From Marinobacterium stanieri (lineage in GTDB: Bacteria > Pseudomonadota > Gammaproteobacteria > Pseudomonadales > Balneatricaceae), in contig NZ_FTMN01000006.1 in assembly GCF_900155945.1 (NCBI RefSeq), positions 186,001 through 250,000 of the forward strand: a stretch of DNA of 64,000 nt, given 5' to 3'. This document shows, one piece after another, positions 13,313 through 45,588 of this stretch (positions are counted from its first letter, which is position 1; every line of letters begins with the position of its first letter). The position numbers and the translations under genes were made by a program. The notes under the pieces are model-generated. The model ran no database searches. It was not told the origin of the DNA and was given only the letters and a program-made list of their open reading frames with translations.

Positions 13313-13877
13313 TATAAAGCTCCGAATTTGCCGCACTTTGCTCGCTCCCGGCACTACAACCTGCCGCGCCCTGAAATCTGCCCGGAACGCCCCGCCCGAC
13401 CACAAAAGCCATACTAGACTTGAGTGTATAAATGCCTGAGGTGACGCTTCAAGGAAACACAAATATCTCGCATCTGAAGCGTTAAACGAAGGTCGGCATT
13501 GCGCAATATGTCAAGACAGGTTCGCAAACTATCAAGCCACCAAAGGTTGCAAGCCAGTAGAGTCGAACCTAATTGCAGGAGTTAGCCATTTCATTTGGCG
13601 CAAGGCTCCGACTCAGCAGAGGGAAAACCCGGCAGTATAAGCCGTTGCGCCCCCGCTGAGGCAAACAAACAATAATAAGATGTGACCACAGAATGAACGC
13701 TGCCATACCGACCACACCGGAAGTCTCGACTTTCGCCGTTTTCCCAACCGAGGAAGCACTGCGCTCTTCCCCTGAGCCGGCTGCCGCCTCACCACTAGTA
13801 GTGAACCCTCAGGCATCCCCCACCACGCCTGTTCTCAAGCACCGTTACTTATAAAAACAACACGCGAGGAAACAACA
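13313..13877. other. 565-bp intergenic region between tetR and the DUF1302 operon
   Basis: No credible gene is seen. It contains the AraC-type site and -10-like hexamer at 13510-13563 and a long leader (about 300 nt) before the DUF1302 start at 13878, which has a good GAGGAA ribosome site at 13866-13871. I see no riboswitch fold or terminator that I could support within the leader. Confidence 0.6.
13510..13563 (+). promoter_or_regulatory. Site F: AraC-type direct repeat and -10-like hexamer upstream of the DUF1302 operon
   Basis: GTCAA at 13510-13514 and ATCAAG at 13531-13536 are direct repeats 21 bp apart. TAGAGT (13558-13563) follows 22 bp after the last base of the repeat. The same layout occurs upstream of four other operons in the window and, reversed, upstream of the second tandem AraC gene. 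The second half-site would overlap the -35 region, as for class II AraC activators. Confidence 0.6.
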
Positions 13878-15512
13878 ATGAGAACCCCTCACGCTGTACT
13901 ACGACAGGGCAAATTCAAACGCAGCACGCTGAGCAAGGTGATTGCGCAGGCGACCGTTGCCGGCGCTTTGGCGGCTCTGGCCGGCCAGGCTCAGGCGCTG
14001 AGTTTTGATCTGGACAACGGCATGACACTGGATGTGGATACCACTGTCGGCTACAGCGCCCAGTGGCGCCGCGAAAGCCATGACCCCAACGTACTGGCGT
14101 TCCCGGCCAGCAACCTGGGCTTCCTGACTGACGACGGTAACCGCAACTTCGACAAGGGTGACATGACCCAGAACCAGGTCAACTTCAGTACCGATCTGGA
14201 TCTCAACTACGGTGACGGTGGTGTCTTTGCCCGCGCCCGTGGCTGGTATGACGAAGTCTACGATGATGATGACCTGATCGGCACCAACACCTGGACCGGT
14301 CAGCCCAAGTCCTTCCAGAAGGATGGCCTGGACGATCACAAGTCCCGACTCGAACTGCAGGATCTGTTCTGGTACCACGGTTTCGCCATGGGCGACCAGT
14401 ACCTGAGCCTGCGTGTGGGTGAACAGGTGGTCAACTGGGGTGAAAGCCTGTTTATCCAGGGGGGTATCTCCACCGCCATGGGTCCGCTGGATGCCACCAA
14501 AGCCAACGCACCGGGCACTGCATTGAAAGATATTTTCATGCCGATCGGCCAGGTCTACGGTGAAATGGCCGTGACGGACCTGTTGTCCATCGGTGCTTAC
14601 TACCAGTATGACTGGGAAAACACCCGCATTGACGCACCGGGCACCTATTTCAATATCCTCGATGGTCTGGGCCAGGGCTCCGTAGGTGACCCCATGGAAA
14701 CCAACGTGATTCCGGGTGTTGGTGGCAATGAGCTGGTCGTCAGCCGGGATAAGCCGGATGAAGGCCAGTACGGTATTGCCATTCGTTACCTGGCAGAAAA
14801 CCTGAACAGCACCGAGTTCGGTTTCTACTACATCAACTACAACGACTTCACTCCGGCGCTGGAATTCCTCTCCAACCCCAACGACGGTGGCTCGGTCAAC
14901 CTGAACCAGAACTACTATGAAGATATCGACCTCTACGGCGTAAGCTTCGGTACCGTGTTCGGTGACATGAATGTCAGCGGTGAACTGTCCTACCGTGACG
15001 GCATCCCGGTACGCCACAACAACACCGCCGGCTTTGCCTACGCCCCGGCAGAAGCCATTCAGGCACAGGTATCCGGTATCTATATCTTCCCGCAGAACCC
15101 GCTGGCCGACACCCTGACGTTTACCGGTGAAATCGCACACAACCGTATTATCGACTTCGACTATCCGGGTGGCATCGACAGTCTGGTTAAAGACCGCAGC
15201 GCCTCCAGCGCCGTTGTCAGCCTGAGCGCCAATTACATGAACATCACCGGTGGTCTGGACATGAAACTGACCGGTACCTACCGCAACGACTTCAATGGCC
15301 GTTCATCAATGGAGTTCTCCTTTGCCGAGGGCACTGAACAGTTTGCACTGAAGTCCGACTTCACCTACCTGGGCCGCCACAAGTTCGGCGCCAGCTATGT
15401 GTGGTACCTGACCGATACCGACGACATCATCGATGATCGCGGCGGCCTGGCCTTTGGTCACCTGAACGCGGACCGTGATTACGTAGCGGCTTACTACAAA
15501 TACACCTTCTAA
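13878..15512 (+). CDS. DUF1302 family outer-membrane protein
   Basis: 544 aa with an N-terminal signal peptide ending near AGQAQALS (about residue 42), then a long aromatic, acidic, strand-rich sequence ending in F (YYKYTF), which is the usual outer-membrane beta-barrel signature. DUF1302 proteins are unstudied in most species but are regularly encoded with DUF1329, YCF48 and MMPL proteins in gene sets for hydrophobic substrates. First gene of the 13878-21511 operon. A likely role is a porin-like outer-membrane channel for the substrate or product of this system (inference). Confidence 0.88.
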   Translation: MRTPHAVLRQGKFKRSTLSKVIAQATVAGALAALAGQAQALSFDLDNGMTLDVDTTVGYSAQWRRESHDPNVLAFPASNLGFLTDDGNRNFDKGDMTQNQVNFSTDLDLNYGDGGVFARARGWYDEVYDDDDLIGTNTWTGQPKSFQKDGLDDHKSRLELQDLFWYHGFAMGDQYLSLRVGEQVVNWGESLFIQGGISTAMGPLDATKANAPGTALKDIFMPIGQVYGEMAVTDLLSIGAYYQYDWENTRIDAPGTYFNILDGLGQGSVGDPMETNVIPGVGGNELVVSRDKPDEGQYGIAIRYLAENLNSTEFGFYYINYNDFTPALEFLSNPNDGGSVNLNQNYYEDIDLYGVSFGTVFGDMNVSGELSYRDGIPVRHNNTAGFAYAPAEAIQAQVSGIYIFPQNPLADTLTFTGEIAHNRIIDFDYPGGIDSLVKDRSASSAVVSLSANYMNITGGLDMKLTGTYRNDFNGRSSMEFSFAEGTEQFALKSDFTYLGRHKFGASYVWYLTDTDDIIDDRGGLAFGHLNADRDYVAAYYKYTF

Positions 15513-15560
15513 GTCTTAAACCAATAATAAAAATCGGACTGCGGTCCGAGGAGACGCATT

Positions 15561-16922
15561 ATGAACCTGAAACGTACTCTGCTCGCCGCCAGCATTGCGG
15601 CGGTTGCTCTCAACGCCGGCTCCGCGCTGGCTGCGGTCAGCCCTGAAGAAGCCGCCAAACTGGGTAAGGAGCTGACTCCGATGGGCGCCGAGCGCGCCGG
15701 TAACGGCAGCGACATTCCCGAGTGGACCGGCGGCCTGACCACCCCACCGGCAGGCTACACCGAGGGCGAGCACCTGGTGGACCCCTTTGCCGATGAGAAA
15801 CCGCTGTACACCATCACCTCAGAGAACTACATGGAGTATGCCGACGTTCTGTCTGATGGTCAGAAAGCGCTGTTCGAGAAAAAGCCGACCTTCAAGATGA
15901 ACGTCTACCCGACACATCGTACGGTACCGGTCCCCGAGTGGGTGGCGAAAAACATCCACACCAACGCGCTGAATGCCGAGCTGACACCGGATGGCAATGG
16001 CGTGGTCAACGCCTATGGCGGCGTACCTTTCGCCATTCCGCAAAACGGCAAGGAAGCGATCTGGAACCACACCCTGCGTTATTACGGTGAAGGCAAGGAT
16101 GCAAGCTATGAGAGCCACACGGTATATGCCAACGGCTCACGTACCATCACGGCCGGCCAGCTGATCGAGACTTACCCGTACAACTACAAGGACGGCAGCC
16201 TCGAAACCTTCAATGGCAACATCATTCACCTGCTGCTGCAGTACTCACTGCCAACACGCCGCAAGGGTGAAATGACGCTGGTACGCGACCCGGTCAACGC
16301 CAACAAGGAACCGCGCCAGGCCTGGCAGTACATTCCTGGTCAGCGCCGAGTACGTCGCGCACCGACCATCGCCTTTGATACGCCGGATCCCGGTTCCAAC
16401 GGCCTGACCACCTATGACCAGGCCTTCATGTTCAACGGTTCCCCGGAGCGCTTCAACTGGGAGCTGGTTGGCAAAAAAGAGATGCTGGTGCCATATAACT
16501 CCTACAAGTTCCTGAGTGCACACAGCAACGGCACACCGATGGATGAAATCGCCCAGGCCGAGCACACCAACCCGGATCTGGAGCGCTGGGAGAAACACCG
16601 CGTCTGGGTTGTGGAAGCAACGCTGCGTGAAGACAGCCGTCATATCTATGGCAAGCGTCGTTTCTACCTGGATGAAGACTCCTGGTTTGCCCTGATGGCC
16701 GACATGTACGACGGCCGTGGTGAGCTGTGGCGCTTTGGCCACTCCCACTTCGTCACGCTGTACAACGAAGACAACCCCATCGCACGCGCGCTCACCAACT
16801 ATGACCTTCAGTCCGGTGACTACGCCATGCAGGAGTACGACCTGATTCCTTACAGCACGGATGCAACCAAGGAAGACAGCTTCTACACCCCGCAGAAGGT
16901 GCGTCAGCTGTCCCGTCGATAA
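15561..16922 (+). CDS. DUF1329 domain-containing periplasmic protein
   Basis: 453 aa with a cleavable signal peptide (MNLKRTLLAASIAAVALNAG, cut near ALAA). The mature protein starts VSPEEAAKLGKELTPMGAER, the conserved N terminus of DUF1329, and keeps AWQYIPGQRRVRRAPT and the tail ending LMADMYDGRGELWRFGH and beyond. The family is thought to have a LolA/LolB-like lipid-binding fold, so a periplasmic carrier for hydrophobic molecules is plausible. It lies 48 bp downstream of the DUF1302 gene and pairs with it in many genomes. No damage is seen. Confidence 0.88.
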   Translation: MNLKRTLLAASIAAVALNAGSALAAVSPEEAAKLGKELTPMGAERAGNGSDIPEWTGGLTTPPAGYTEGEHLVDPFADEKPLYTITSENYMEYADVLSDGQKALFEKKPTFKMNVYPTHRTVPVPEWVAKNIHTNALNAELTPDGNGVVNAYGGVPFAIPQNGKEAIWNHTLRYYGEGKDASYESHTVYANGSRTITAGQLIETYPYNYKDGSLETFNGNIIHLLLQYSLPTRRKGEMTLVRDPVNANKEPRQAWQYIPGQRRVRRAPTIAFDTPDPGSNGLTTYDQAFMFNGSPERFNWELVGKKEMLVPYNSYKFLSAHSNGTPMDEIAQAEHTNPDLERWEKHRVWVVEATLREDSRHIYGKRRFYLDEDSWFALMADMYDGRGELWRFGHSHFVTLYNEDNPIARALTNYDLQSGDYAMQEYDLIPYSTDATKEDSFYTPQKVRQLSRR

Positions 16923-16931
16923 CAGCACATC

Positions 16932-16956
16932 GAGACCGGCAGACACTGCCGGTCTC
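16932..16956 (+). terminator. Perfect hairpin inside the DUF1302 operon
   Basis: A perfect 10-bp stem (GAGACCGGCA / TGCCGGTCTC, 5-nt loop) starts 9 bp after the DUF1329 stop and is followed by ATTT but no long T-run. It probably acts as a partial terminator or mRNA stabiliser, so that the two envelope proteins are made in excess of the downstream transporter. Confidence 0.5.
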
Positions 16957-17089
16957 ATTTCCACGCTATTCCGGAAGCATGTTCCTGCCGAGCCTGTTGC
17001 CGTAATAGCGCCGAAAGGGAAACACCGGTATTGCCCCACCTGTCAGGACCGGGCACAACTCGCTCCACCCACTTAAAAAGAATAATCCT

Positions 17090-18244
17090 ATGAAACAGCT
17101 CAGTTTGCCTCAAACCCTAGTCCAACCGCCCAGTGTGCGGTCCAGCCTGTGCATGCTGGTCGGCCTGGCACTCTCCACCACCGCGCTGGCGGGCGATGCG
17201 CTGGAAGAACCGGCACTGATGTCGCCGCTGGCAGCTCAGAGCCTGGTGCTGGATATGGAGCGTGTCGGCAGCAGCCTGGTGGCCGTTGGCGAGCGCGGTC
17301 ATATTCTGGTGTCGAATGATGAAGCCAGCACCTGGCAGCAGGCCCCCGCGCCCGTGCGTGTCACCCTGACCAACACCTTTTTCATTGACGACAGCTTCGG
17401 CTGGACCGTGGGCCACGATGGCGTGGTGCTCAAGACCGAGGATGGTGGTCAGAGCTGGCGCAAGGTGATGGACGGTAACCGGGCCAATGCATTGATGCAG
17501 GCCCATGCCGAAGCACAGCTGGCCGAACTGGAAGCCGCCATTGCGTCCGCACCCGAGGATGAGCGCGAGGAGCTGGAGTACGAACTCGAAGACCGTATCT
17601 ACATGGCCGAAGATGCTGAAGCCTTCTCCGAAGAAGGCGCCAGCCGCCCCTTCCTGGACGTCTGGTTCAAGGACCGCAATGAAGGCATTGTCGTGGGTGC
17701 CTTTGGCCTGATTCTGCGCACCACCGACGGCGGTGAAACCTGGTCGGCCTGGTTCGACCGCATGGACAACCCGAGCCTGTTTCATCTGAACGCGATCACT
17801 CAGATCGGTGACCAGCTCTACATCGCGGCAGAAGCCGGCAACCTGTTTCGCTCATCTGACTGGGGCCAGAACTGGGAATCCCTGGACAGCCCTTACGACG
17901 GTTCATTCTTCGGCATCATCGGTAATGATCAGGGGCGCATCATCGCCTTTGGTCTGCGCGGTAATGCCTTCCAGTCCAATGATTGGGGCAACCGCTGGCA
18001 GCCGATCGATACCGGTGTGGATTCAACCTTCTTCAGCGGCACCCTGCTGGATGACGGCTCTGCCGTTCTGGTCGGCGCGGCCGGCATGTCACTGCACCTG
18101 GATGCACAAGGCAAGGTGATCGAGAGCAACCGTAATCCGGCCCGCCTGCCACAGAGCAAGGTTCTCACCAGCCCCGAAAAAGGCCTGTTGATCTCGGGTG
18201 CCCACGGCGTACACGCCGCGTCCCTGAGCGGAGGTAAGGAATAA
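17090..18244 (+). CDS. YCF48/BNR-repeat beta-propeller, exported
   Basis: 384 aa with a signal peptide (cleavage near ALAGDA, about residue 35). Blade motifs of the YCF48/sialidase type are visible: GERGHILVSNDEASTWQQ, GHDGVVLKTEDGGQSWRK, GAFGLILRTTDGGETWSA, AEAGNLFRSSDWGQNWES and GLRGNAFQSNDWGNRWQP. An acidic, Glu/Ala-rich probable helix (about residues 140-180) interrupts the propeller between the second and third visible blades. YCF48 is an assembly factor for photosystem II in cyanobacteria. Relatives like this one accompany MMPL transporters and may help assemble or dock them at the periplasmic face. Its stop codon overlaps the next start by one base. Confidence 0.82.
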   Translation: MKQLSLPQTLVQPPSVRSSLCMLVGLALSTTALAGDALEEPALMSPLAAQSLVLDMERVGSSLVAVGERGHILVSNDEASTWQQAPAPVRVTLTNTFFIDDSFGWTVGHDGVVLKTEDGGQSWRKVMDGNRANALMQAHAEAQLAELEAAIASAPEDEREELEYELEDRIYMAEDAEAFSEEGASRPFLDVWFKDRNEGIVVGAFGLILRTTDGGETWSAWFDRMDNPSLFHLNAITQIGDQLYIAAEAGNLFRSSDWGQNWESLDSPYDGSFFGIIGNDQGRIIAFGLRGNAFQSNDWGNRWQPIDTGVDSTFFSGTLLDDGSAVLVGAAGMSLHLDAQGKVIESNRNPARLPQSKVLTSPEKGLLISGAHGVHAASLSGGKE

Positions 18245-20676
18245 TGAAAACGACACAAAAAAACACCTCAGCCTGTGCGTCCGGCACTGAATCCGTGATT
18301 GAGCGGATCTTCTTCCATCACCGTCCACTGGTGATTCTGCTGATGCTGGCGGCAACGCTGTTCTTCGGCTACCAGGCCAGCAGCATCAAACCCGAAGCCA
18401 GCTTCGAGAAGATGATTCCGGCGTCTCACCCCTATATTGCCAACTACCTGGAGCACAAGGACGACCTGGCCGGTCTGGGCAATGCCATCCGTATCTCGGT
18501 GGAACATACCCAGGGCGATATCTTCGACAAGGATTTCCAGGAAACCCTGCAGCAGGTCCACGACGAAGTCTTCTATGTGCCCGGGGTCAACCGTGCCAGC
18601 CTGATGTCGATCTGGGCATCAGGCGTGCGCTGGTCCGAGGTAACCGAGCAGGGCCTGACCGGTGGTCCGGTGATCGCCGACACCTATGACGGCTCGCCGC
18701 AAGAACTGGAAAAACTGAAAACCAACATCCTTAAATCCGGTCGCATCGGCTCCCTGGTCGCCAACGATTTCAAATCGGCAATCATCTATGCCCCGCTGCT
18801 GGACTTTAACCCGGACACCGGTGAGCCCATCGACTACCAGCAGTTTTCCAGCCAGCTGGAAGAGCTGATCCGCGACAAGTACGAAAGCGACAGCGTCAAA
18901 ATCCATATCACCGGTTTTGCCAAGGTGGTGGGTGACCTGATCGACGGCGCCAGCCAGGTTGCTGTCTTCTTTGCCATCGCATTGGCAATCACCTTCGTAC
19001 TGCTGCTTCTGTATTCCCGCTGCCTGCGCAGCTCCATCGTGCCGCTGCTATGCTCCGTGATTGCCGTGATCTGGCAGCTCGGCCTGCTGAAAACCCTGGG
19101 CTACGGCCTTGACCCCTACTCCATGCTGGTGCCCTTCCTGGTATTTGCCATTGGTGTCAGCCACGGTGTGCAGATCATCAATGCCATCGGCCATGAAAGT
19201 GCCAAGGGTGCCAACAAGGAGCTGGCCGCGCGCCTGGCTTTCCGCGCCTTGTACATCCCCGGCATCATCGCACTGATCAGTGATGGCGTGGGCTTTGCCA
19301 CCCTGATGGTGATTGATATCGCCGTCATCAAGGATCTGGCTGCTGCCGCCAGTATCGGCGTCGCCGTCATCATTCTGACTAACCTGATTCTATTGCCGAT
19401 CCTGATGTCCTACGCCGGTGTCAGCCAGAAATCGGTCAAGAAACAGCAGCATGTAGAGGAACACGGCAAGCATCCGATCTGGAACCTGCTGTCCAGCTTC
19501 ACCCAGCGCCCGCAGGCGACGCTGGTCATCCTGTTTGCCTTCGCTCTGGTCGGCCTGGGCGTCTATCAGAGCCAGGACCTGAAAGTGGGTGACCTGGATG
19601 CCGGTGCACCGGAACTGCGCCCCGACTCCCGCTACAACCTGGATAACGCCTTCATCAACGAGAACTACTCCACCAGCACGGATATCTTCGTGATCATGGT
19701 GCAGACCGCCAAGGACCAGTGCTCCAACTACCACACCCTTGATGTGGTGGATCAGTTGCAGTGGCGCCTGAAGCAGTTGCCGGGTGTGCAGTCTGCCAGC
19801 TCCATGGTGAACGTGGCCAAACAGGCGATGACCGGTTACAACGAAGGCAACGTCAAATGGAGCGCACTGAACCGCAACCAGGCCCTGCTGAACCAGGCGT
19901 CTATTACCGCGCCTCGTGGCAGCTTCAACGCTGACTGCAGTCTGATGCCGGTATTCGTTTACCTGAACGATCACAAAGCCGAAACCCTGGCCGCCGTCGT
20001 GGACGAAACCGAAGCCTTTGCCGCGAAATACAACAACGATGCACTGACCATCAAGATGGCCGCCGGTAATGCCGGTATTGAAGCCGCCACCAACATCGTC
20101 ATCGAGAAGGCGCAGTACGAAATGCTGATCTGGGTGTACTCGGTTGTCGGCTTCCTCTGCCTGATCACCTTCCGCTCCATCCGCACGGTGGCCTGTATCC
20201 TGCTGCCGCTGGCACTGACCTCGCTGCTGTGTCAGGCCCTGATGGCGCGCCTGGGTATTGGTGTCAAAGTGGCCACCCTGCCGGTTATCGCGCTGGGCGT
20301 CGGCATCGGTGTCGACTACGGCATCTACATCTACAGCAAGCTGGAAACCTACCTGAAATCCGGCATGAACCTGCGTGATGCCTACTTCAACACGCTGAAA
20401 ACCACCGGCAAGGCGGTCGCATTCACCGGCCTGACCCTGGGTATCGGTGTGGGCACCTGGTTCTGGTCGCCGATCAAGTTCCAGGCTGACATGGGCATCC
20501 TGCTCACCTTCATGTTCGTGTGGAACATGGTCGGTGCACTGGTATTCCTGCCGGCGCTGGCCAGCTTCCTGATCAAACGCCAGCCGGTCTCCAGCGAATC
20601 CGAGCCTCAGGCGATCAAACAGTTCGATACAGCCGAAACTCAGGCCAACAAGGAAGCGAAGGTGTCCCATGCGTGA
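18244..20676 (+). CDS. MMPL/RND superfamily transporter
   Basis: 810-aa inner-membrane protein with the two-fold repeat of the RND superfamily: one TM helix near residue 35, a periplasmic domain, and a TM bundle with FAIGVSHGVQ (about residue 300), all repeated in the second half with GVGIGVDYGIYIYSKLE (about residue 690). The 12-TM count and the lack of HAE1-type length (about 1030) place it with MMPL/hopanoid or lipid exporters rather than drug pumps. It is translationally coupled to the YCF48 gene (TAATGA) and overlaps the next gene by 8 bp. Likely cargo is a lipid-like molecule; direction of transport cannot be told from sequence. Confidence 0.88.
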   Translation: MKTTQKNTSACASGTESVIERIFFHHRPLVILLMLAATLFFGYQASSIKPEASFEKMIPASHPYIANYLEHKDDLAGLGNAIRISVEHTQGDIFDKDFQETLQQVHDEVFYVPGVNRASLMSIWASGVRWSEVTEQGLTGGPVIADTYDGSPQELEKLKTNILKSGRIGSLVANDFKSAIIYAPLLDFNPDTGEPIDYQQFSSQLEELIRDKYESDSVKIHITGFAKVVGDLIDGASQVAVFFAIALAITFVLLLLYSRCLRSSIVPLLCSVIAVIWQLGLLKTLGYGLDPYSMLVPFLVFAIGVSHGVQIINAIGHESAKGANKELAARLAFRALYIPGIIALISDGVGFATLMVIDIAVIKDLAAAASIGVAVIILTNLILLPILMSYAGVSQKSVKKQQHVEEHGKHPIWNLLSSFTQRPQATLVILFAFALVGLGVYQSQDLKVGDLDAGAPELRPDSRYNLDNAFINENYSTSTDIFVIMVQTAKDQCSNYHTLDVVDQLQWRLKQLPGVQSASSMVNVAKQAMTGYNEGNVKWSALNRNQALLNQASITAPRGSFNADCSLMPVFVYLNDHKAETLAAVVDETEAFAAKYNNDALTIKMAAGNAGIEAATNIVIEKAQYEMLIWVYSVVGFLCLITFRSIRTVACILLPLALTSLLCQALMARLGIGVKVATLPVIALGVGIGVDYGIYIYSKLETYLKSGMNLRDAYFNTLKTTGKAVAFTGLTLGIGVGTWFWSPIKFQADMGILLTFMFVWNMVGALVFLPALASFLIKRQPVSSESEPQAIKQFDTAETQANKEAKVSHA

Positions 20677-21511
20677 GTTCAAGAAACTGCTGGTGGTCCT
20701 GAACCCCACTCAAGCCGACCAGGTTGCTCTCAACAAGGCAGTACGCATTGCCGGCCATCAGGATGTGGAGATCACGGCACTGCTGCTGCAGCGTACGTCG
20801 GGCGGCGAGTTTCGTACGCTACTCGACCAGCAGCTGCAGCAGCTACAGCAACAGAGGCTCAACATTCGTCTGGAAATCAGCCCGGAAACCGATCTGCTGC
20901 GTGCCCTGTTGCTGTGCCAACATAAGCAGAGCTTTGACCTGACGCTCAAGGAGCCGCACAAGGGCAGCCTGAGCGACTCCCTGTTCACCCCGCTGGACTG
21001 GAAACTGCTGCGGGCCCAGAACACGCCGGTGCTGATGACACGCCCCAATAACCTGACAGCGGACGCGCCCATTCTGGCCGCTGTCGAAGCCGCCCCGTCC
21101 GACCCGGAACACCAGCGCCTGAACCAGCGCATACTGGAACAGGCAACCGAGTTGTCAGACACCTTGCAGCGCCCTCTGCACCTGTTCAGCGCCTGCCCGG
21201 CGCCGATGCAAAACCCGGGACTGGATGATCAGGATGGCGAACAGCAACAGGCGTATCGAGATGCCTGTGTCAGCCTCGCCAACCAGTATGGTATCGCGGC
21301 GGAGCGGGTGCATGTGGATGCAGGCCCTGCCGAGCTGTTGATTGCAGATCGGGCCAAGACTCTGGATGCGCGCCTGCTGGTGCTGGGTACGGTGGCACGT
21401 ACGGGGCTCAGAGGCGTACTGCTGGGCAATACTGCCGAACAGCTGCTGGAGCGCGTCGATATCGACGTACTGGTCATTCCGCCGCCTCGCCAGGACGGAA
21501 CCACCGCCTAA
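20669..21511 (+). CDS. Universal stress protein, UspE-like
   Basis: 280-aa tandem Usp-domain protein. The C-terminal half has the GTVARTGLRGVLLGNTAEQL stretch and DVLVIPP ending, like E. coli UspE. The first half has the FTPLDWKLLRAQNTPVLM segment but lacks a clear nucleotide-binding G-2x-G-9x-G motif. Its start overlaps the MMPL gene by 8 bp, so it belongs to the same operon and is probably made with the transporter. It may sense nucleotide or lipid state for this system (inference). Confidence 0.8.
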   Translation: MREFKKLLVVLNPTQADQVALNKAVRIAGHQDVEITALLLQRTSGGEFRTLLDQQLQQLQQQRLNIRLEISPETDLLRALLLCQHKQSFDLTLKEPHKGSLSDSLFTPLDWKLLRAQNTPVLMTRPNNLTADAPILAAVEAAPSDPEHQRLNQRILEQATELSDTLQRPLHLFSACPAPMQNPGLDDQDGEQQQAYRDACVSLANQYGIAAERVHVDAGPAELLIADRAKTLDARLLVLGTVARTGLRGVLLGNTAEQLLERVDIDVLVIPPPRQDGTTA

Positions 21512-28075: not shown

Positions 28076-28104
28076 TTTTCCAGCACTGGTAACACGAGAT
28101 CATT

Positions 28105-34286: not shown

Positions 34287-34339
34287 GTCAATTTGCTGTC
34301 GCCGATTATCAAGCCCTTACCGAAGTAAGTCTCTAGATT
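34287..34339 (+). promoter_or_regulatory. Site A: AraC-type direct repeat and -10-like hexamer upstream of the FAD dehydrogenase
   Basis: GTCAA (34287-34291) and ATCAAG (34308-34313), direct repeats 21 bp apart, followed 21 bp further by TAGATT (34334-34339). It lies about 75 bp before the start codon at 34413. Same geometry as sites B, E and F. Confidence 0.6.
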
Positions 34340-35844: not shown

Positions 35845-35904
35845 TCAGGTTTCAGGCGGGCCATTTACACAAGCAACTACCCGCCCCGCGCTTTGTCGTC
35901 TTGT

Positions 35905-35957
35905 GTCAATGCCGAGACACCTATTGTCAAGATAGCCACCCCTCCCGCACTTAGCAT
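35905..35957 (+). promoter_or_regulatory. Site B: AraC-type direct repeat and -10-like hexamer upstream of the GMC operon
   Basis: GTCAA (35905-35909) and GTCAAG (35926-35931), 21 bp apart, then TAGCAT (35952-35957) 21 bp further on. The remainder of the 329-bp gap 35787-36115 holds the terminator above and about 150 bp of leader with no recognisable element. Confidence 0.6.
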
Positions 35958-36115: not shown

Positions 36116-36688
36116 ATGGGTAACAAGACCAACCTGCCGTCGGCAACGCGCCGACTGTTCCTGCGCCGCTCCCTGCTGGCGCTGGGTGCTATCGCCGCTG
36201 CACCCGCCATGACTACTCAGGCCATTGCCAAAACCGCCGACAGTGCCAGCGCACTGTCCTCTCTGAGTGTCCTCAGTCAGGAGGAATACCGCATTCTGAC
36301 AGTGGTGGGCGATACCGTTGTGCCACGCGGAGGCGCTTTCAATCTGGGCGCACTGGATATCGACCTGGCGACACGCATCGACAGCTACCTGGACCCTGAT
36401 GACGCGCCCATGCTGCAAGGCCTTCGAGGCGCTCTGATGTTCCTCGAACACAAGGCACCGGCACTGGCCAAGATGGAAGGCACCTTTTCCGCCTTGCCCG
36501 CCCCGCAGCGTGAAGGGCTGTTGCTGGCCCTGAGGGATACCGGTGGTGACGCTACGGCTGTCTACGCCGCCCTGCGCGGGCTGTGCACCTTCTATTTCTA
36601 CACCCATGAGCACGCCTGGCCGGGCGTTGGCTATGACGGCCCGCTGGTAAAACGTGGTCGACCGGTATACCCCCAGGTGGAGGCTTAA
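36116..36688 (+). CDS. Tat-exported gluconate 2-dehydrogenase subunit 3-like protein
   Basis: 190 aa with a twin-arginine signal (TRRLFLRRSLLALGAIAAAP), so it is exported folded. The mature part has the subunit-3 features LSQEEYRILTVVGDTVVPRGG and FYFYTHEHAWPGVGYDGP. This small subunit normally forms a complex with a GMC flavoprotein dehydrogenase and carries the Tat signal for both. Its stop codon is 1 bp before the GMC start, and the GMC ribosome site (GGAGG) is inside its last codons, so the two are tightly coupled. Site B lies about 160-210 bp upstream. Confidence 0.87.
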   Translation: MGNKTNLPSATRRLFLRRSLLALGAIAAAPAMTTQAIAKTADSASALSSLSVLSQEEYRILTVVGDTVVPRGGAFNLGALDIDLATRIDSYLDPDDAPMLQGLRGALMFLEHKAPALAKMEGTFSALPAPQREGLLLALRDTGGDATAVYAALRGLCTFYFYTHEHAWPGVGYDGPLVKRGRPVYPQVEA

Positions 36689-36689
36689 C

Positions 36690-38231
36690 ATGATTATTCA
36701 AGGTCACGAAATTTTTGCACCGCTGAAGCTGAAAACCCACTCGGTGGTCGTTGGCTCAGGTGCCGGCGGCGGTGTCGCGGCTTACCACATGGCTGCAGCC
36801 GGTCTTGAAACCGTGGTGCTGGAAGAAGGTGGCTACTTTCAGGCCAAGGACTTTAACCAGCGCGAAGAAGACATGATGCCAGCGCTGTACCGCAGCAAAG
36901 GCCAGCAGACCACCACCGATGGCATGATCTATGTCTGGCAGGGCTCAACCTTTGGCGGCTCCACCGTTATCAATACGGCCGATGCAACGCCCATCGAAGC
37001 TGAAGTACTGCACCACTGGCAACAGAAATTCGGCTTGAGCGAACTCACCGAAGACAACCTGGCCGCCTCCTATAAGCGAGTGTACAAAATGCTCAATGTA
37101 CACCGTCTGGAAGACCAGATCCTGAATGCGAATAATAAGCTGTTGTTGGAGACTGCGAATCGTCTGGGTTACAAGGCGGGCGTATTCGAATCCAACCGCA
37201 AGAACTGCGTCGGCAGCGGCTACTGCTTCCAGGGTTGCGCCTATGATGCCAAGCAGGGCACTAACCTGACCTACTTGCCCAAAGCCTCTGAGCTAGGTGC
37301 CCGCATCTATACCGATGTCCGTGTCGACCGTATCGAGCGCCTGTTCGGCGGCAAATATCGTGTGCACGCGACAGTAGTTGCCCGTGGCAGTCGCAAGGCA
37401 CGTCACCCTGTCGAGATCGATTGCGAACGTATCATCATGGCCGCAGGTACCGTGCATACACCGGCAATTCTGAAGCGTTCCGGCTTTGACAAGGGCCTGC
37501 CGCAACTGGGCAAAAACATCTCCCTGCAGCCGCAGATCGGCCTCTCCGCCGTAATGCCGGACAGCCAGAAAATGACCTCCTGGCGCGGCGCACCTCAGTC
37601 CATCTACATGAGTGAGTTTGACGACAACCATGCCGAGCATGGCCTGGGCGGCTTCCGCATGGAAGGTGTTGGCGGCATGGTCGGGATCTTCTCCCACTTT
37701 GGTAACACCATCGGCCACGACCACAAGCGTTTGATGGCGGAGTACCCCAACACCCACTTTTCTGCACTGCTGGTGCCTGACCAGCCCAGCGGCACCCTGG
37801 ACTGGGAATGGGGACCGGACGGCAAGGTTAAACCCAAGATCCAGTACAAGCTGACCGAAGAGTGGAAGCAGCGCTTCAAGCGCGGCTACAAGACCGCTGC
37901 CGAATTCCTGTTTGAAGCCGGTGCCCGCGAGATCAACTGCAACAGCCCGGTGTTCGGGCCGATCACCAGTCCTGACCAGCTTTCCCGCATTGATGAATTT
38001 CCCCTGGAGCCGGGCATGGTCGCTCTGACCTCGGCCCATGTTCAGGGTAGCTGCCGTATTGGACTCAACGCCGACGTGGGCGTTGTGGACCAGAACCTGC
38101 AGCTGCACAACCTGGACAATATCTTCGTGGTCGATGGTTCCGTCATGCCGACGACCGCCTCCACCCACACCATGGTCCCCATCATGGTGATGGCCGACCG
38201 CGCCATGCACAAACTGGCCCAGGGCGCCTGA
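36690..38231 (+). CDS. GMC-family flavoprotein dehydrogenase (alcohol/polyol oxidising)
   Basis: 513 aa. FAD motif VVGSGAGGG at residues 20-28, then FGGSTVINTADATP. A Cys triad at 173, 179 and 183 (CVGSGYCFQGCAYDAKQG) resembles that in membrane gluconate dehydrogenases and long-chain alcohol oxidases. The C-terminal active-site region has AHVQGSCRIG and VVDGSVMPTTASTHTMVP. There is no signal peptide of its own; export by hitch-hiking on the Tat signal of subunit 3 is expected. No cytochrome c subunit is encoded nearby, so the electron acceptor is unknown. The start at 36690 has a perfect GGAGG. The substrate is probably an alcohol (inference). Confidence 0.88.
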   Translation: MIIQGHEIFAPLKLKTHSVVVGSGAGGGVAAYHMAAAGLETVVLEEGGYFQAKDFNQREEDMMPALYRSKGQQTTTDGMIYVWQGSTFGGSTVINTADATPIEAEVLHHWQQKFGLSELTEDNLAASYKRVYKMLNVHRLEDQILNANNKLLLETANRLGYKAGVFESNRKNCVGSGYCFQGCAYDAKQGTNLTYLPKASELGARIYTDVRVDRIERLFGGKYRVHATVVARGSRKARHPVEIDCERIIMAAGTVHTPAILKRSGFDKGLPQLGKNISLQPQIGLSAVMPDSQKMTSWRGAPQSIYMSEFDDNHAEHGLGGFRMEGVGGMVGIFSHFGNTIGHDHKRLMAEYPNTHFSALLVPDQPSGTLDWEWGPDGKVKPKIQYKLTEEWKQRFKRGYKTAAEFLFEAGAREINCNSPVFGPITSPDQLSRIDEFPLEPGMVALTSAHVQGSCRIGLNADVGVVDQNLQLHNLDNIFVVDGSVMPTTASTHTMVPIMVMADRAMHKLAQGA

Positions 38232-38296
38232 GCGCTTAACAGCTGCATAACGGGAGCGCCGACAAGGCTCCGCCACAAAATAAAAAGGATAGACAG

Positions 38297-39088
38297 ATGC
38301 TGAACGATACCACCCGCGAATCCATTGCCGAACAGATCTTTTCCTGCTTCGCCACCAAGGAACAGCTGCCCCTGCTGACCAAATCCCATCCCGAACTGGA
38401 GATGGAAGATGCTTATCGCATCCAGGAAAAAGTCGTCAGCAAATTCGTAGATCAAGGCCGCAAGGTTAAAGGCTATAAAATCGGCCTGACCTCCAAAGCA
38501 ATGCAAGACATGATCGGCGCCACCGAGCCGGATTACAGCTCCATCCTGGATGACATGTTCGTTGACGAGAGTGCTGAGCTTCCGCGCGAAGACTTCGCCA
38601 CGCCCATGGTTGAGATTGAACTGGCGTTTGTAATGAAAAAGCGCCTGCAGGGGCCCTTCGTCAACGCCGCCGAAGTAATCCAGGCAACCGACTTTATCCT
38701 GCCCTCGATTGAAATCGTCGATTTTCGCGTCGCCCCGGCACCGGGCATTAACGTGCGCGACACCATCCCGGACCTGGCGGCCATCGGCAAGGTTGCTCTG
38801 GGCGGCAATCCCGTGCGCCTGGAGGACATCGACGTACGCGATATCAACGCTGAACTGATCATCAACGGTGAAACCCGTGAATCCGGCAGCTCAGCCGCCG
38901 TGCTGGGTAACCCGGTGACCGCAGTGGTTTGGCTGGTGAACAAACTGTCTGAATTTGGCGTGGCCTTTGAGCCGGGCGATGTGATTTTCTCTGGCTCCTG
39001 TGTCCGCGCCCAGCCCGTTCAGGCCGGTGACAGCGTTACAGCCCGTTTCGATAAGGGCCTGGGTGACGTAAACCTGAGCTTCAAGTGA
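38297..39088 (+). CDS. 2-keto-4-pentenoate hydratase / HpaH-type hydratase
   Basis: 263-aa member of the fumarylacetoacetate hydrolase superfamily, hydratase branch. Key motifs are [13 protein letters not shown], the metal-binding [11 protein letters not shown] and [10 protein letters not shown], and [19 protein letters not shown]-like sequence near the C terminus. HpaH and MhpD add water to 2-oxo-alkenoates in aromatic meta-cleavage pathways. No ring-cleavage dioxygenase is in the window, so the substrate here may be another 2-oxo-enoate. It is the third gene of the GMC operon and 8 bp before ilvD. Confidence 0.88.
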
Positions 39089-39095
39089 GGTAGGC

Positions 39096-40952
39096 ATGTC
39101 TAATTATCGCTCCAAGACCACCACAGAAGGTCGCCAGGCCGCGGGTGCGCGTGCGCTCTGGCGCGCTACGGGCGTGTGCGATGAGGATTTCGGCAAGCCG
39201 ATCATCGCGGTCGCAAACTCCTTCACCCAGTTCGTGCCCGGCCACGTCCACCTGAAGGATATCGGCCAGATGGTATGCCGCGAGATCGAGAAAGCCGGTG
39301 GCATCGCCAAGGAATTCAACACCATCGCCATCGATGATGGTATCGCCCAGGGCCACGACGGCATGCTCTACTCGCTGCCCAGCCGCGATATTATCGCCGA
39401 TTCCGTGGAATACATGGTTAACGGTCACTGTGCCGACGCACTGATCTGTATCTCCAACTGCGACAAGATCACACCGGGAATGCTGATGGCTGCCATGCGT
39501 CTCAACATCCCCACGATCTTTGTCTCCGGCGGCCCCATGGAAGCCGGGCGCGTTCAGTTGAAAGAACAGGTACTGCGTATCGACCCGGTCGATGCCTACG
39601 TTGCGGGTGTTAACCCCGCCACTGACCCGGACGAGGCGCTCAAAGTCGAGCAGAGCGCCTGCCCCACCTGCGGTTCCTGCTCCGGCATGTTCACAGCCAA
39701 CTCCATGAACTGCCTTAACGAAGCCCTGGGTCTTGCCCTGCCCGGTAACGGCAGTATGCTGGCGACCCATGCTGACCGTCGTGAGCTGTTCCTGGACGCC
39801 AGCCGGCGTATCGTCGAGATCACCCGACGTCATTATGAGCAGGGCGATGAGAGCGTATTGCCGCGCAATATCGCCAACCGTGATGCTTTCCACAACGCCA
39901 TGACCATGGATATCGCCATGGGCGGCTCCACCAACACCATCCTGCACCTGCTGGCAGCCGCGCAGGAAGGTGAGATCGACTTCACCATGGCCGATATCGA
40001 CCGCCTGTCCCGAGAAGTCCCGCATCTGTGCAAGGTGTCTCCGGCCACCAACCAGTACTACATGGAAGACGTACATCGCGCCGGCGGCGTGTTTGCCATT
40101 CTGGGTGAACTGGACCGAGCCAAGCTGCTCAACACCCAAGTCAGCACCGTACACAGCGCCACCCTTGGCGACGCTCTGGATCAGTGGGACATCTGCCGCA
40201 CCGAAGATGCTGCGGTAGAAGAGTTTTTCCGTGCCGGTCCTGCCGGTATCCGTACCACTGAAGCCTTCAGTCAGGATTGTCGCTGGGACAGCCTGGACCG
40301 TGATCGCGAGAACGGCTGTGTACGCAGTCTCGATAATGCCTACAGCACGGAAGGCGGCCTGGCCGTACTCTTCGGCAATCTGGCAGAGGACGGCTGTATC
40401 GTGAAAACCGCCAGCGTACTGCCGCATATGCTTGAGTTCGAAGGCGTGGCACGCGTGTTTGACGACCAGGACAAGGCACTGGATGCACTCAAAGCCGACG
40501 AGATCCAGCCCGGCACCTGTGTCATTATTCGCTATGAAGGCCCCAAAGGCGGCCCCGGCATGCAGGAGATGTTGCTGCCCACCAGCCTGATCAAGGCCAA
40601 GGGTCTGGCTGACTCCTGTGCCCTGCTCACCGACGGCCGCTTCTCCGGCGCGACCTCCGGTCTATCGATCGGCCACACCTCACCGGAAGCCGCCAATGGC
40701 GGTGCGATTGGTTTGGTCGAAGATGGCGATATCATCAAGCTGGATATTCCCAACCGCAGTATTCGGGTGGATGTATCCGATGAGGTATTGGCTGAGCGAC
40801 GTCAGCAGATGGAAGCACGCGGACTCAAGGCCTGGAAGCCTTGCGCACCACGAGCACGCAAGGTCAGCCTGTCACTGAAAGCCTTTGGCATGCTGGCAAC
40901 CAGCGCCGACAAGGGTGGTGTGCGTAACCGGGAAATTCTGGAGAATTTCTAA
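39096..40952 (+). CDS. ilvD: Dihydroxy-acid dehydratase
   Basis: 618 aa, the long E. coli-like form. Dehydrates 2,3-dihydroxy acids to 2-oxo acids, normally in branched-chain amino acid synthesis. Cluster ligands and catalytic region are intact: Asp81, Cys122 and Lys124 in [10 protein letters not shown], and Cys195 in [11 protein letters not shown]. The C-terminal half has [12 protein letters not shown] and [10 protein letters not shown]. It is the last gene of the GMC operon and ends before a strong terminator. Its position after a 2-keto-enoate hydratase leaves open a catabolic role on sugar acids or 2,3-dihydroxy acids rather than, or besides, valine and isoleucine synthesis. Confidence 0.93.
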
Positions 40953-42335: not shown

Positions 42336-43499
42336 TCAACCATGCAGATCACGGTAGGGCTGATCGCCCAACTCGCTGATCAAAGTGCTGCCCAGTTGCT
42401 CAACCTCGGCAAACGCCTTGCGCAGGCTGGCATCCGATACCTCTTCCTGCATGTTGGCGATAAACGGGAAGCCCAGGGTACCTTCGATGGCGGTCGCGAC
42501 CGAAGCTTCATCCTCCAGTGAAAAGCCGATCTGGGCAAAGCTCACCGGCAGGCCCACCTCGGCAAAGAAGCGCGCACAACGCTCGGCTTCTGCCTGATCA
42601 TTCTCCAGCATCAGCTGGGCCAGAATGCCGATGGCGACCATTTCACCATGCAGGTAGTTGTGGTCCACATGCGGCAGCAGCGTCAGCGCCTGAGCCAGCG
42701 CATGGGCACCGGCCACGCCGGTGCATTCAAAACCGGCGCCACTGAGCAGCGTGTTGGCTTCAACGATATCCTCAACCGCCTCGTTCACCTGCTGGTCTTT
42801 AACAGCCGCCAAGGCAGCAGCCCCCTGTGCATAGAGAATATCGGCACAGCTTTCTGACAACGCCATACCCGCCAGGGTGGGACGTGTGCCATAGGGTGAT
42901 ACGCCCATCGGGTTCTTCTGGCAGGCGCGGGCTTCATACCAGGTCGCCATGGCATCGGCCATGCCGGCCACCAGGTAACGGGGCGGCGCCTTGGCTGCTA
43001 TCTCGGTGTCCACCATGACCAGAGCCGGATTATCTTTCATCACCTCGAAGGTCTCGGTCGCACCTTCAGGTGTGTAAATCACGGAAATAGCTGAGCAGGG
43101 AGCATCGTTTGACGCCAGAGTCGGCATGATCACCACCGGCACCTCCAGGCGCGACGAAATGCTCTTGCCTGCGTCCAGGGGTTTGCCGCCACCCAGTGCG
43201 ATCAAGGCATCAAAGCGGCCCTGCTCATTCAGTTCGGCCACACGGGCATCAATTTCCTCAAAGGAACACTCGCCACCGAAAGTGGTGACATAGGCTTCAA
43301 TGCCCGCACGGTCGAGAGACGCGATCAGTCGCTTGGCTTCACCTCGCTGGCTTCGGGGCGTACACAAAATGGCGCAACGCTTGATCTGCATTTGAGCCAA
43401 GGGCTCAGCCGCATTATCAACCAGGCCGGCAGCCTGGATGTAACGCGGAGTGGTGCGAAAGGCGCGCGGCAGCACCGCTGGCGTCTGCTGATCTGACAT
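42336..43499 (-). CDS. Iron-type alcohol dehydrogenase, glycerol dehydrogenase (GldA)-like
   Basis: 387 aa. The NAD-binding motif ALGGGKPLDAGKSIS and PTLASNDAPCSAISVIYT match GldA closely. Metal ligands of the family appear as Asp in GMADAMATWYEA, His in GVAGAHALAQAL and His in NYLHGEMVAIG. It would oxidise glycerol or another secondary or vicinal alcohol with NAD. The start has CAGGAG about 8 bp upstream. It is downstream of the coniferyl-aldehyde-type dehydrogenase on the same strand, after a 145-bp gap with a long perfect inverted repeat, so it may be part of the same transcript. Confidence 0.88.
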   Translation of the reverse strand: MSDQQTPAVLPRAFRTTPRYIQAAGLVDNAAEPLAQMQIKRCAILCTPRSQRGEAKRLIASLDRAGIEAYVTTFGGECSFEEIDARVAELNEQGRFDALIALGGGKPLDAGKSISSRLEVPVVIMPTLASNDAPCSAISVIYTPEGATETFEVMKDNPALVMVDTEIAAKAPPRYLVAGMADAMATWYEARACQKNPMGVSPYGTRPTLAGMALSESCADILYAQGAAALAAVKDQQVNEAVEDIVEANTLLSGAGFECTGVAGAHALAQALTLLPHVDHNYLHGEMVAIGILAQLMLENDQAEAERCARFFAEVGLPVSFAQIGFSLEDEASVATAIEGTLGFPFIANMQEEVSDASLRKAFAEVEQLGSTLISELGDQPYRDLHG

Positions 43500-43517
43500 G
43501 GGATCACTCCTGGCAGG

Positions 43518-43555
43518 TTCGGCTGGTCCAGGAATAGCGGTAGTGACCAGCCGAA
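43518..43555 (-). promoter_or_regulatory. Perfect inverted repeat in the leader of the GldA-like gene
   Basis: TTCGGCTGGTC (43518-43528) and GACCAGCCGAA (43545-43555) form a perfect 11-bp inverted repeat with a 16-bp spacer, ending 18 bp before the start codon and just before its ribosome site. It could be a regulator binding site or an RNA hairpin that affects translation or ends the upstream transcript. No T-tract follows. Confidence 0.45.
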
Positions 43556-43644
43556 AAGATCATCTGGATAGCGGCAGCCCGCAGGGATGCGGATCTGCCG
43601 GATAAAGTCAGTGGCAGAAATGCGACTGACTGTCCGTCATCGGA

Positions 43645-45075
43645 TCAGAGACGGAATTTCAGCATCAGCTTCATCATCTTGTCGAAGCGCTCGCCGTAGG
43701 GCGGTGCCAACATCAGGATGCCGGACTTCTTCGCCTGCTTGAATACAGGACGGATCTTGGAAAATTCCAGGAAGCCTTCCTTACCGTGGTAGTGCCCCAT
43801 ACCCGAGTTACCCACACCGCCGAATGGCATATCATGCTGAGCCACATGCAGCAGGGTATCGTTGATGGAAACACCACCGGACAGGGTGTTGAAAAGCACC
43901 TTGTCTTCGGTTTGTTTATCATTGGTGAACAGGTACAGCGCCAGCGGACGCTCGCCGGCATTGATGTAATTGATCACTTCATCCAGGCTGTCGTACAGCT
44001 TGATCGGCAGCAGCGGGCCGAAAATTTCGTCGCGCATGATCAGCATGTCTTCTTTGACATCCAGCACCACGGTGGGCGGGAACTTGCGGCTTTCCGCGTT
44101 GGGCTGCCCCTTGGCCACCAGCTGGACGGACTTGGCACCCTTTCTGGTGGCATCTTCAACCGTGTCGGTGATGCGCTGGAACGCGGTATCATCGATCAGT
44201 GAGGTAAAGTCAGGCGAGTCAGCCGTGCCATAACGCTCGTTGAGGACATCCTTGGCGTGCTTGATGAATTCGTCGGCAGCGCCACGCGGCAGGAACAGGT
44301 AATCCGGTGCAGTACAGGTCTGGCCACAGTTGACGAACTTGCCGAACAGCAGACGCTCGGCAGCGATGCGCAGGTCGTAATCCTTGGCAACGATGGTCGG
44401 CGATTTGCCACCCAATTCCAGGGTAACAGGGGTCAGATATTTGGAGGCTGTCTCCATGACAACCTTGCCGGTCGCCGGTGAACCGGTGAAGACAAAGTGG
44501 TCCCAGGGGCGGTCGGTAAAGGCACTGGCACGCACGCCAGGAATCACGGCAAACTGGTCGTCACTGAATTCGGCGGACACCAGCTTATCCAGCAGACGGC
44601 ACAAATTCTGTGAGTTGGCCGCCATTTTTACGATCACGCGGTTACCGGCCGCCAGTGCCGCGATGGCCGGGCCGATCGCCAGACCCAGCGGGTAGTTCCA
44701 GGGGCTGACCACACCCACAACGCCCTTGGGCTGGGGGATAACCCGGTTTTTGGCGCCCAGGAAGCTGATGCCTACATGGCGTTTTTCCGGCTTCATCCAG
44801 GCCTTGAGGTGCTTCTTGTGATAGGCCACGGAGCTGACCATCTGCGCCACTTCCAGCAGCTTGGTCTCCTGGTGGCTGCGGTTACCGTAATCGGCATTCA
44901 CCGCTTTACAGATTTCGTCCTGGTTCTCCATCAGGATCTTGTCGATCTTGTTCAGAGCGTCAATGCGCTCCTGATAGCTGGGATAGGGCTTCTCGCGGGA
45001 TGCGCGGCGTTGCTTTTCAAAGACCTGATCAATCCGGCTTACTTCCTGATTGAGAATGGGTGCGGCACTTGTCAT
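43645..45075 (-). CDS. Coniferyl aldehyde dehydrogenase-type aldehyde dehydrogenase
   Basis: 476-aa NAD-dependent aldehyde dehydrogenase of the class 3-like/CALDH group, with GVVGVVSPWNYPLGLAIGPA, catalytic Glu220 in LELGGKSP and catalytic Cys254 in NCGQTCTAPDY. The C terminus (LKFRL) is soluble here. It oxidises aromatic or medium/long-chain aldehydes to acids. A GAGG ribosome site precedes the ATG. Its upstream region has site E in the correct orientation about 325 bp away, with a MITE-like repeat between promoter and gene. It divergently faces the acyl-CoA ligase gene, which would use the acid product. Confidence 0.92.
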   Translation of the reverse strand: MTSAAPILNQEVSRIDQVFEKQRRASREKPYPSYQERIDALNKIDKILMENQDEICKAVNADYGNRSHQETKLLEVAQMVSSVAYHKKHLKAWMKPEKRHVGISFLGAKNRVIPQPKGVVGVVSPWNYPLGLAIGPAIAALAAGNRVIVKMAANSQNLCRLLDKLVSAEFSDDQFAVIPGVRASAFTDRPWDHFVFTGSPATGKVVMETASKYLTPVTLELGGKSPTIVAKDYDLRIAAERLLFGKFVNCGQTCTAPDYLFLPRGAADEFIKHAKDVLNERYGTADSPDFTSLIDDTAFQRITDTVEDATRKGAKSVQLVAKGQPNAESRKFPPTVVLDVKEDMLIMRDEIFGPLLPIKLYDSLDEVINYINAGERPLALYLFTNDKQTEDKVLFNTLSGGVSINDTLLHVAQHDMPFGGVGNSGMGHYHGKEGFLEFSKIRPVFKQAKKSGILMLAPPYGERFDKMMKLMLKFRL

Positions 45076-45380: not shown

Positions 45381-45400
45381 TCGGCTATTTCGATACTGAC

Positions 45401-45453
45401 AGCCTAAAAGAGCCCCACCCCAGCAGCTTGACAGTATACGTTGCAGATTTGAC
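45401..45453 (-). promoter_or_regulatory. Site E: AraC-type direct repeat and -10-like hexamer for the aldehyde dehydrogenase gene
   Basis: On the minus strand, GTCAA (45453-45449) and GTCAAG (45432-45427) are 21 bp apart, with TAGGCT (45406-45401) 21 bp further on. The orientation fits transcription towards the aldehyde dehydrogenase gene at 45075. The predicted RNA would run through the MITE-like repeat. Confidence 0.58.
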
Positions 45454-45561
45454 AAATAACGTCATCCAAATTGAGCCTATGCGCTAGTCCAGCTTTACTC
45501 CTGGCTGCACTCCTGCCCCTTTCACTGCACTACTGCAGCAACAAGGAGCCTGTCGTCTAAT

Positions 45562-45588
45562 GTCAAAACCCGTGCGGTTTATGTCAAG
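45562..45588 (+). promoter_or_regulatory. Site C: AraC-type direct repeat upstream of the acyl-CoA ligase operon
   Basis: GTCAA (45562-45566) and GTCAAG (45583-45588), direct repeats 21 bp apart, oriented towards the ligase gene at 45864. A -10 at the usual 21-bp distance is not clear here; TATTCC at 45612 is a poor candidate. Confidence 0.55.

Follow-up and report, generated by a model that had tools for sequence, protein, structure and literature searches.

The stretch of Marinobacterium stanieri DNA described here (64,000 nt, positions 186,001 to 250,000 of contig NZ_FTMN01000006.1; hereafter the window) contains genes for DUF1302, DUF1329, MMPL and DUF3604 proteins, a GMC oxidoreductase, an aldehyde dehydrogenase (ALDH) and an acyl ligase, together with genes for AraC-family regulators. 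Spread among them are copies of a direct repeat, GTCAA-N16-RTCAAG, which an earlier note on this DNA had taken as the mark of an AraC regulon. Two AraC paralogues do lie amid the sites, as that note stated (AraC1 at 31839 and AraC2 at 33075), although the window holds three regulators with the same N-terminal domain, the third at 10063. The repeats are very probably operators of an AraC-family regulator, most likely AraC2, at class II-like promoters of one regulon. By the sequence comparisons below, the conserved AraC regulon that the earlier note saw appears to be real, and it probably serves the breakdown of an oily alcohol or aldehyde.

The exact pattern is found six times in the window, at 13510-13536, 34287-34313, 35905-35931 and 45562-45588 on the plus strand and at 32987-33013 and 45427-45453 on the minus strand, with the coordinates and strands that had been assigned before. 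The number is far above chance, as had also been claimed (from an estimate of 0.06 matches): 100 dinucleotide shuffles give 0.03 expected matches. All six copies lie between long open reading frames (ORFs), five begin with TGTCAA, and five face a start codon at a distance of 99-351 bases, each before a different operon (DUF1302/MMPL, FAD dehydrogenase, GMC, ligase and ALDH). At the DUF1302, FAD, GMC and ALDH sites a TAGNNT hexamer begins 20-21 bases past the last base of the site. These points of the earlier note are all borne out.

A scan of gaps from 8 to 29 gives six matches at gap 16, one at gap 15 and none at any other gap. The whole genome (4.68 Mb, 24 contigs) has 14 matches, and the eight outside the window are all within mechanically listed ORFs of 294-604 codons. 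A backward control pattern gives 11 matches genome-wide; thus the genome total is no more than background, the remarkable features being the clustering and the intergenic placing alone. Given the match rate in the rest of the genome, the probability of at least six matches in 64 kb is about 2e-9. A chance origin of the six sites is ruled out by the shuffles, the gap scan and this probability. Two of the three outcomes that the earlier note had named as speaking against it are a motif equally common inside genes genome-wide and a motif not conserved in related species. Neither is seen, since in-gene matches are at background only and the sites are kept before orthologous genes in relatives. A weight-matrix scan, of the kind that the note had proposed, recovers its six sites and shows its list to be incomplete, adding a site at 26166 on the plus strand and a weak one at 32914 on the minus strand.

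Half-site anatomy was read from a profile of 24 sites, which omits coding hits, the extra units of a tandem array in locus L024, two L029 sites and the M. mangrovicola copies, the last being near-duplicates of those of M. lutimaris. A second box was found: all 24 first half-sites and 22 of the 24 second ones have a C ten bases ahead of the C in GTCAA. This upstream box (box A), which was not used in picking the sites, repeats between the half-sites at offset 21 with a correlation of 0.73; at the other offsets within 16-27 the correlation is -0.27 to 0.07. The half-site consensus is about TGTCGYANWATGTCAAG, and two such half-sites stand in direct orientation 21 bp apart, i.e., two helical turns. 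Thus the site has the form expected for class II AraC binding, two direct half-sites at a spacing of about 21 bp, each with two boxes one turn apart. The tandem array in L024 (M. nitratireducens, 8972-9041) has four GTCAA units at 21-bp steps before duf1302.

In the class II layout of AraC, two monomers occupy a 21-bp direct repeat, the second of them at -35. A 26-site set was formed by adding the 26166 plus-strand site and L025 10519(+) to the 24. In 17 of these 26 sites a TANNNT starts 20 or 21 bases past the last base, and it is rare at other distances. TANNNT stands at 19-21 in 25 of 37 sites; when a -35 element was sought at these 25, with spacers of 16-18 bases, the best match averaged 1.96 of 6 positions vs 2.44 in shuffled sequences. 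The proximal half-site is thus found at the -35 position, followed by a -10 at a fixed distance and with a poor -35. The class II activator-like placing that had been suggested therefore fits: 21-bp two-box half-sites, a -10 at a fixed distance at most sites, and no -35.

Table 1. Predicted operators, putative target operons and AraC-type regulators in the window (PWM, position weight matrix score)
Feature	Position	Strand	-10 element	Remarks
Predicted operator, two half-sites, before DUF1302/DUF1329/BNR/MMPL/Usp operon	13499..13537	+	TAGAGT, 13558-13563	exact pattern; PWM 40.9
Predicted operator, degenerate, newly found, before DUF3604 operon	26156..26194	+	TACGCT, 26214-26219	PWM 27.8
Weak reversed operator-like site between two araC genes	32886..32924	-		PWM 22.9; profile E 0.12
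Reversed predicted operator upstream of araC 33075	32986..33024	-		exact pattern and PWM scan
Predicted operator before FAD-linked oxidase (GlcD-like)	34276..34314	+	TAGATT, 34334-34339	exact pattern; PWM 30.8
Predicted operator before gluconate-2-dehydrogenase-subunit-3-like/GMC/hydratase/IlvD operon	35894..35932	+	TAGCAT, 35952-35957	exact pattern; PWM 44.7
Predicted operator before ALDH (43645-45075, -)	45426..45464	-	TAGGCT, 45406-45401	exact pattern; PWM 43.5
Predicted operator before acyl-CoA/ACP ligase operon	45551..45589	+	CACTAT (-10-like, not TANNNT), 45609-45614	exact pattern; PWM 47.4
Putative target operon: DUF1302, DUF1329, BNR-repeat, MMPL, Usp	13878..21511	+		Pfam
Putative target operon: two DUF3604 proteins, PPIase, HupE_UreJ_2	26270..31809	+		Pfam
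Putative target: FAD-linked oxidase	34413..35786	+		
Putative target operon: Gluconate_2-dh3, GMC oxidoreductase, FAA-hydrolase-fold hydratase, IlvD	36116..40952	+		
Putative target operon: ALDH, glycerol-dehydrogenase-like iron alcohol dehydrogenase	42336..45075	-		
Putative target operon: AMP-forming ligase, GntP-like permease, 2-hydroxyacid dehydrogenase, FMN-dependent dehydrogenase	45864..51138	+		
AraC2, PF12625 + HTH_18, QhpR-like	33075..34145	+		orthologues (54-83%) in six other site-bearing genomes
AraC1, AraC2 paralogue	31839..32891	+		DNA-binding domain 58/96 identical; second recognition helix identical
Third PF12625 AraC, between thiolase and enoyl-CoA hydratase genes	10063-11124			QhpR 177 bits, GliR 160 bits

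AraC1 and AraC2 are both above the Pfam cut-off for Arabinose_bd (PF12625) plus HTH_18. A search of 57 genomes, M. stanieri included, revealed one other close orthologue of AraC2 (61%, in genome G024), and two more genomes have homologues of 34-35% identity at E 1e-40. Elsewhere, orthologues are found in M. lutimaris (83%), M. mangrovicola (82%), a metagenome-assembled genome (MAG; 60%) and Oceanobacter mangrovi (54%), and also in M. nitratireducens, where the match is the same as in G024. Sites precede the duf1302, gmc, aldh, ligase and DUF3604 orthologues in M. nitratireducens, M. lutimaris, M. mangrovicola and the MAG. The ligase gene of Oceanobacter adjoins that of the AraC2 orthologue, with one site between them, and a genome of another family (G354) has AraC2 at 63% together with ALDH, GMC and DUF3604 genes with four sites. 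Thus five further species keep sites in front of orthologous genes, as does a seventh genome, which belongs to another family. The DUF1302 site has a counterpart at the same position in M. nitratireducens, M. lutimaris, M. mangrovicola and the MAG; the GMC and ALDH sites are conserved in four relatives and G354, the ligase-facing site is present in five relatives, and the FAD-oxidase site is strong in the MAG. The degenerate DUF3604 site (profile E 0.002 in M. stanieri, it being itself part of that profile) has orthologous sites in loci L025, L040, L043, L036 and L136; in the window it overlaps the Crp ORF 25371-26255, in an N-terminal extension that is doubtful, the Pfam match of this ORF beginning at residue 92. 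AraC2 is the constant partner of the sites across genomes, which makes it the most likely regulator of the sites.

In M. lutimaris and M. mangrovicola a stronger site stands in place of the minus-strand site at 33014 in the window and faces mesX-mesD (L040 10822(-), L033 5968-8006(-) and L043 5303(+); families checked in M. lutimaris). These genes encode an oxygen-dependent, folate-independent methionine synthase whose methyl source is unknown. The distance from the site is about 250 bases in M. mangrovicola and about 1.8 kb in M. lutimaris, where a -10 was not found; because of this distance and the missing -10, control of mesX-mesD is only a possibility. In M. stanieri mesX is on contig 2, with no site scoring at least 13 within 1.5 kb.

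Sites are also found before similar short-chain dehydrogenase/reductase (SDR) genes, at L089 6396(+) in M. lutimaris, with the same site at L090 5865(-) in M. mangrovicola, and at L093 355(+) in M. nitratireducens. In L089 and L090 a PF12625-type AraC gene stands alongside (Pfam was run on L089), and the SDR-linked sites with an adjoining AraC may represent a second regulon of the same code. Locus L092 of genome G032 has two similar sites, 4999(-) and 16887(-), in which box A is altered, in a neighbourhood with a diverged PF12625 AraC and aminotransferase, ligase, MMPL, DUF1329 and DUF1302 genes. In L091 (G059:C82) sites at 5077(+) and 7182(+) are located beside a gene resembling the AraC homologues and before an ALDH-like gene, both by resemblance only.

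The specificity of the sites was assayed with a sequence-only profile built from the 26-site set. In M. stanieri, nine hits are found at E up to 10: eight are in the window cluster, seven of which had built the profile, and the ninth, on contig 8, precedes the gene of another AraC homologue by 31 bases. Across the 57 genomes, M. stanieri has 9 hits at E up to 1 and G024 has 11, while all others have at most three; these are the sole two genomes of the 57 with AraC2 at no less than 60% identity. Outside these two, a single hit falls below 0.01, in G036, where it precedes an AraC homologue; of the 16 outside hits fetched, 2 (in G036 and G038) have an AraC homologue within 1.5 kb. Twelve genomes, three of which are among the 57, were chosen because they have AraC homologues or sites; they give 18 hits at E up to 1, and eight of these stand no more than about 115 bases upstream of a homologue. 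Most of the eight also count in the homologue test that follows. The pattern TGTCAA-N17-TCAAG alone matches three times inside 30 kb of G029 and twice, at a distance of 12 kb, at the related AraC locus of G032.

More distant AraC homologues (23-63% identity) were assayed by searching 380 bases around their projected starts against 40 shuffles each. Two of the 49 loci had no BLAST match (L066 and L111), leaving 47. A site that beats all 40 shuffles is present at 21 of the 47 loci, in the reversed orientation in every case, and in 17 of the 21 it is 10-60 bases upstream of the projected start; TANNNT at 20/21 is found at 12. Since 21 of the 47 loci are in stretches already scanned or seen, the fresh count is 16 of 26. 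Eight of 45 plasmid records, hand-chosen among 30 listed, were compared with single-base shuffles, and seven, SlfR of Psychrobacter among them, have a site 21-39 bases upstream; these are from Gammaproteobacteria, Azoarcus (Betaproteobacteria) and Novosphingobium (Alphaproteobacteria), the site of the last being weak and without GTCAA. The residues FSR in the second recognition helix are found in 17 of 21 homologues with a site and 10 of 26 without (P 0.007), an association made post hoc, counted by eye and uncorrected for kinship. A site code that follows the score for the QhpR model was rejected, as only one (L062) of 14 loci of the wider class picked by that score (L053-L064, L067 and L068) is positive; the code thus belongs to a branch and not to all such regulators. 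On balance we think that this PF12625 AraC branch keeps one operator-promoter code in Gamma- and Betaproteobacteria, and perhaps in Alphaproteobacteria: half-sites of about TTCGYAAWNRTCAAG 21 bp apart, a -10 20-21 bases on and no -35, usually set 10-60 bases in front of the regulator gene and directed away from it.

Comparison with known systems gives several partial likenesses. QhpR, which regulates the qhp amine dehydrogenase operon, is the best NCBIfam match of both proteins, yet AraC2 (228.5 bits) and AraC1 (247.3 bits) stay below the 250-bit cut-off of the equivalog model NF049968. Escherichia coli AraC at araI1-I2 likewise binds a direct repeat of half-sites with 21-bp spacing, of which the proximal half-site is at -35; it differs in site sequence and ligand, and AraC2 reaches 24.5 bits for the E. 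coli AraC model. The best solved relative of AraC2 is VirS (PDB 8rcx; residues 9-335, E 3.6e-29). LaoABCR of Pseudomonas aeruginosa, a GMC dehydrogenase with a small partner and an ALDH for long-chain alcohols, is similar in its kinds of enzymes but has a TetR regulator. A reading as a polyethylene-glycol pegR system was set aside; the literature search gave, among the matches listed, only unrelated work. No operator of this form was found for these AraC proteins in the limited literature searched.

GliR (PA3027) of P. aeruginosa is a related regulator, with AraC2 at 118.4 bits and AraC1 at 83.6 bits for a model (NF050186) whose equivalog cut-off is 570 bits. Its chromatin immunoprecipitation sequencing motif is YYGGCGHTDTYSGMC (PMC8151288), which, aligned by eye, resembles the half-site of the window in having a CG box and a GMC box spaced ten bases apart, and one such motif overlaps the -35 of a target that is activated (PMC8151288). 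The GliR motif is GC-rich and has other targets, and no direct repeat is mentioned in the parts of that text searched.

SlfR of the Psychrobacter plasmid pP62BP1 is the same kind of AraC regulator (27% identical to AraC2 and 30% to AraC1). SlfR represses PslfC in E. coli, lauryl aldehyde relieves the repression, and PslfC is strong without SlfR (PMC10779009). The enzymes of slfCHSL, from which slfR is divergent, include an ALDH, a ligase and a GMC protein that are 43%, 31% and 22% identical to those of the window. PslfC has the same tandem site, followed by TACAGT at offset 20. Thus an AraC regulator with ALDH, GMC and ligase targets and a tandem site at the regulated promoter is common to both systems, with the GMC identity low. 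The predicted SlfR operator is at L138 9923-9961 on the minus strand, and no operator is described for SlfR in PMC10779009 as far as that text was searched. The differences are a box A of TGTCCT instead of TGTCG and a single divergent operon with an alkyl sulfatase; in the parts of the sources covered, induction by a long-chain aldehyde is known for SlfR only.

Taken together, the sites suggest that an AraC2 dimer would lie on one face of the DNA, each monomer contacting the CG box with one helix-turn-helix and the GTCAA box with the other. The proximal half-site would end at the -35 position, with the -10 20-21 bases on at most sites. As no -35 is present, the promoters should depend on the bound regulator, i.e., class II activation. 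The regulon would join presumed transport (DUF1302, DUF1329 and MMPL) with a GMC alcohol dehydrogenase, an ALDH and an acyl ligase, and this enzyme set makes the alcohol or aldehyde that it oxidises the probable inducer. The same kinds of enzymes in slfCHSL, with the likeness to GliR, lead us to infer oxidation from alcohol to aldehyde to acyl thioester with a pathway intermediate as the signal; by analogy with SlfR, the inducer is perhaps a long-chain aldehyde.

A number of observations weigh against this interpretation. Nine of the 26 sites have no TANNNT at 20/21, the ligase promoters carrying CANTAT instead. The reversed site upstream of araC2 has neither a gene in its direction nor a TANNNT at 19-21 (none was found at 19-21 for the weak 32886..32924 site either), and it may be a remnant or serve the control of araC2 itself. 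The FAD-oxidase site is weak in M. lutimaris (PWM 19.2) and M. nitratireducens (profile E 0.42), and the ligase-facing site of the MAG is about 1 kb from the ligase. Among the homologues, 26 of 47 upstream regions have no site above all shuffles, and no site was found at the Cupriavidus locus, one of the eight plasmid loci. Fourteen of the 16 fetched outside hits, all with E above 0.01, have no AraC homologue within 1.5 kb. Lastly, the SlfR case is one of repression.

It is rather unlikely, in our estimate, that the regulator is a repressor lifted by aldehyde, as SlfR is, instead of an activator. The relief of SlfR repression by lauryl aldehyde, at a promoter with the same site and -10 offset, is in its favor. 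However the window promoters have no -35, a half-site ending at -35 with fixed spacing is the usual activator geometry of class II AraC promoters, and the GliR motif that overlaps a -35 goes with activation. This geometry argument is weakened because PslfC also has no -35 and yet is strong without SlfR. Similarly, it is unlikely that AraC1, alone or with AraC2, is the main protein on the sites, the two competing or answering different ligands. AraC1 has the higher QhpR score, its gene is directly after the DUF3604 operon, and it may bind too, as it shares the second recognition helix with AraC2. Against this, an AraC1 orthologue (68%) is found, among the seven genomes, only in M. lutimaris and M. 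mangrovicola; in the MAG, Oceanobacter and G354 the AraC2 orthologue is the sole match at E 1e-60 and the sites are kept; and the two AraC1-like genes of G024 (52% and 49%; L019 and L021) have no upstream site. That the sites belong to the TetR (12637) or Crp-like (25371, 51146) factors encoded in the window, or are ordinary repeated promoter parts, TGTCAA being the complement of TTGACA, is very improbable given the 21-bp direct repeats with two boxes each, the recurrence of the site next to AraC homologues at loci picked solely for their AraC genes, and the fact that such complements, as -35 elements, would point away from the -10. AraC2 acting as an activator is preferred.

Other features of the window were also noted. 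Three putative targets have predicted leaders of about 250-325 bases from the -10 to the start codon (13564-13877, 45076-45400 and 45615-45863), and an Rfam scan of the window, these leaders included, found no family at gathering score. A 25-base element in the ALDH leader (45259-45283) has 12 genome copies with up to 2 mismatches (control 0) and is a dispersed repeat family. Where the TetR gene 12637-13293 begins, two minus-strand GTCAAG stand 20 bp apart (13279-13304; gap 15) and may form the TetR promoter or operator. In PDB searches the ligase matches acyl-ACP synthetase, the GMC protein has no match at 1e-10, and the first DUF3604 protein has none at 0.001.

The site gives these AraC proteins a predicted operator, promoter layout and target set. 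The presence of DUF1302, DUF1329, MMPL and DUF3604 genes in one putative regulon with alcohol and aldehyde oxidation offers a clue to what they do; the code found beside SlfR points to a testable inducer class, and the mesX-mesD methionine synthase genes have such a site facing them in two relatives. An operator shared within an AraC branch is of more interest than a regulon of a known kind: if the branch code holds, the targets of many uncharacterised regulators, and through the enzymes among them the ligands that are probable, would be readable from sequence.

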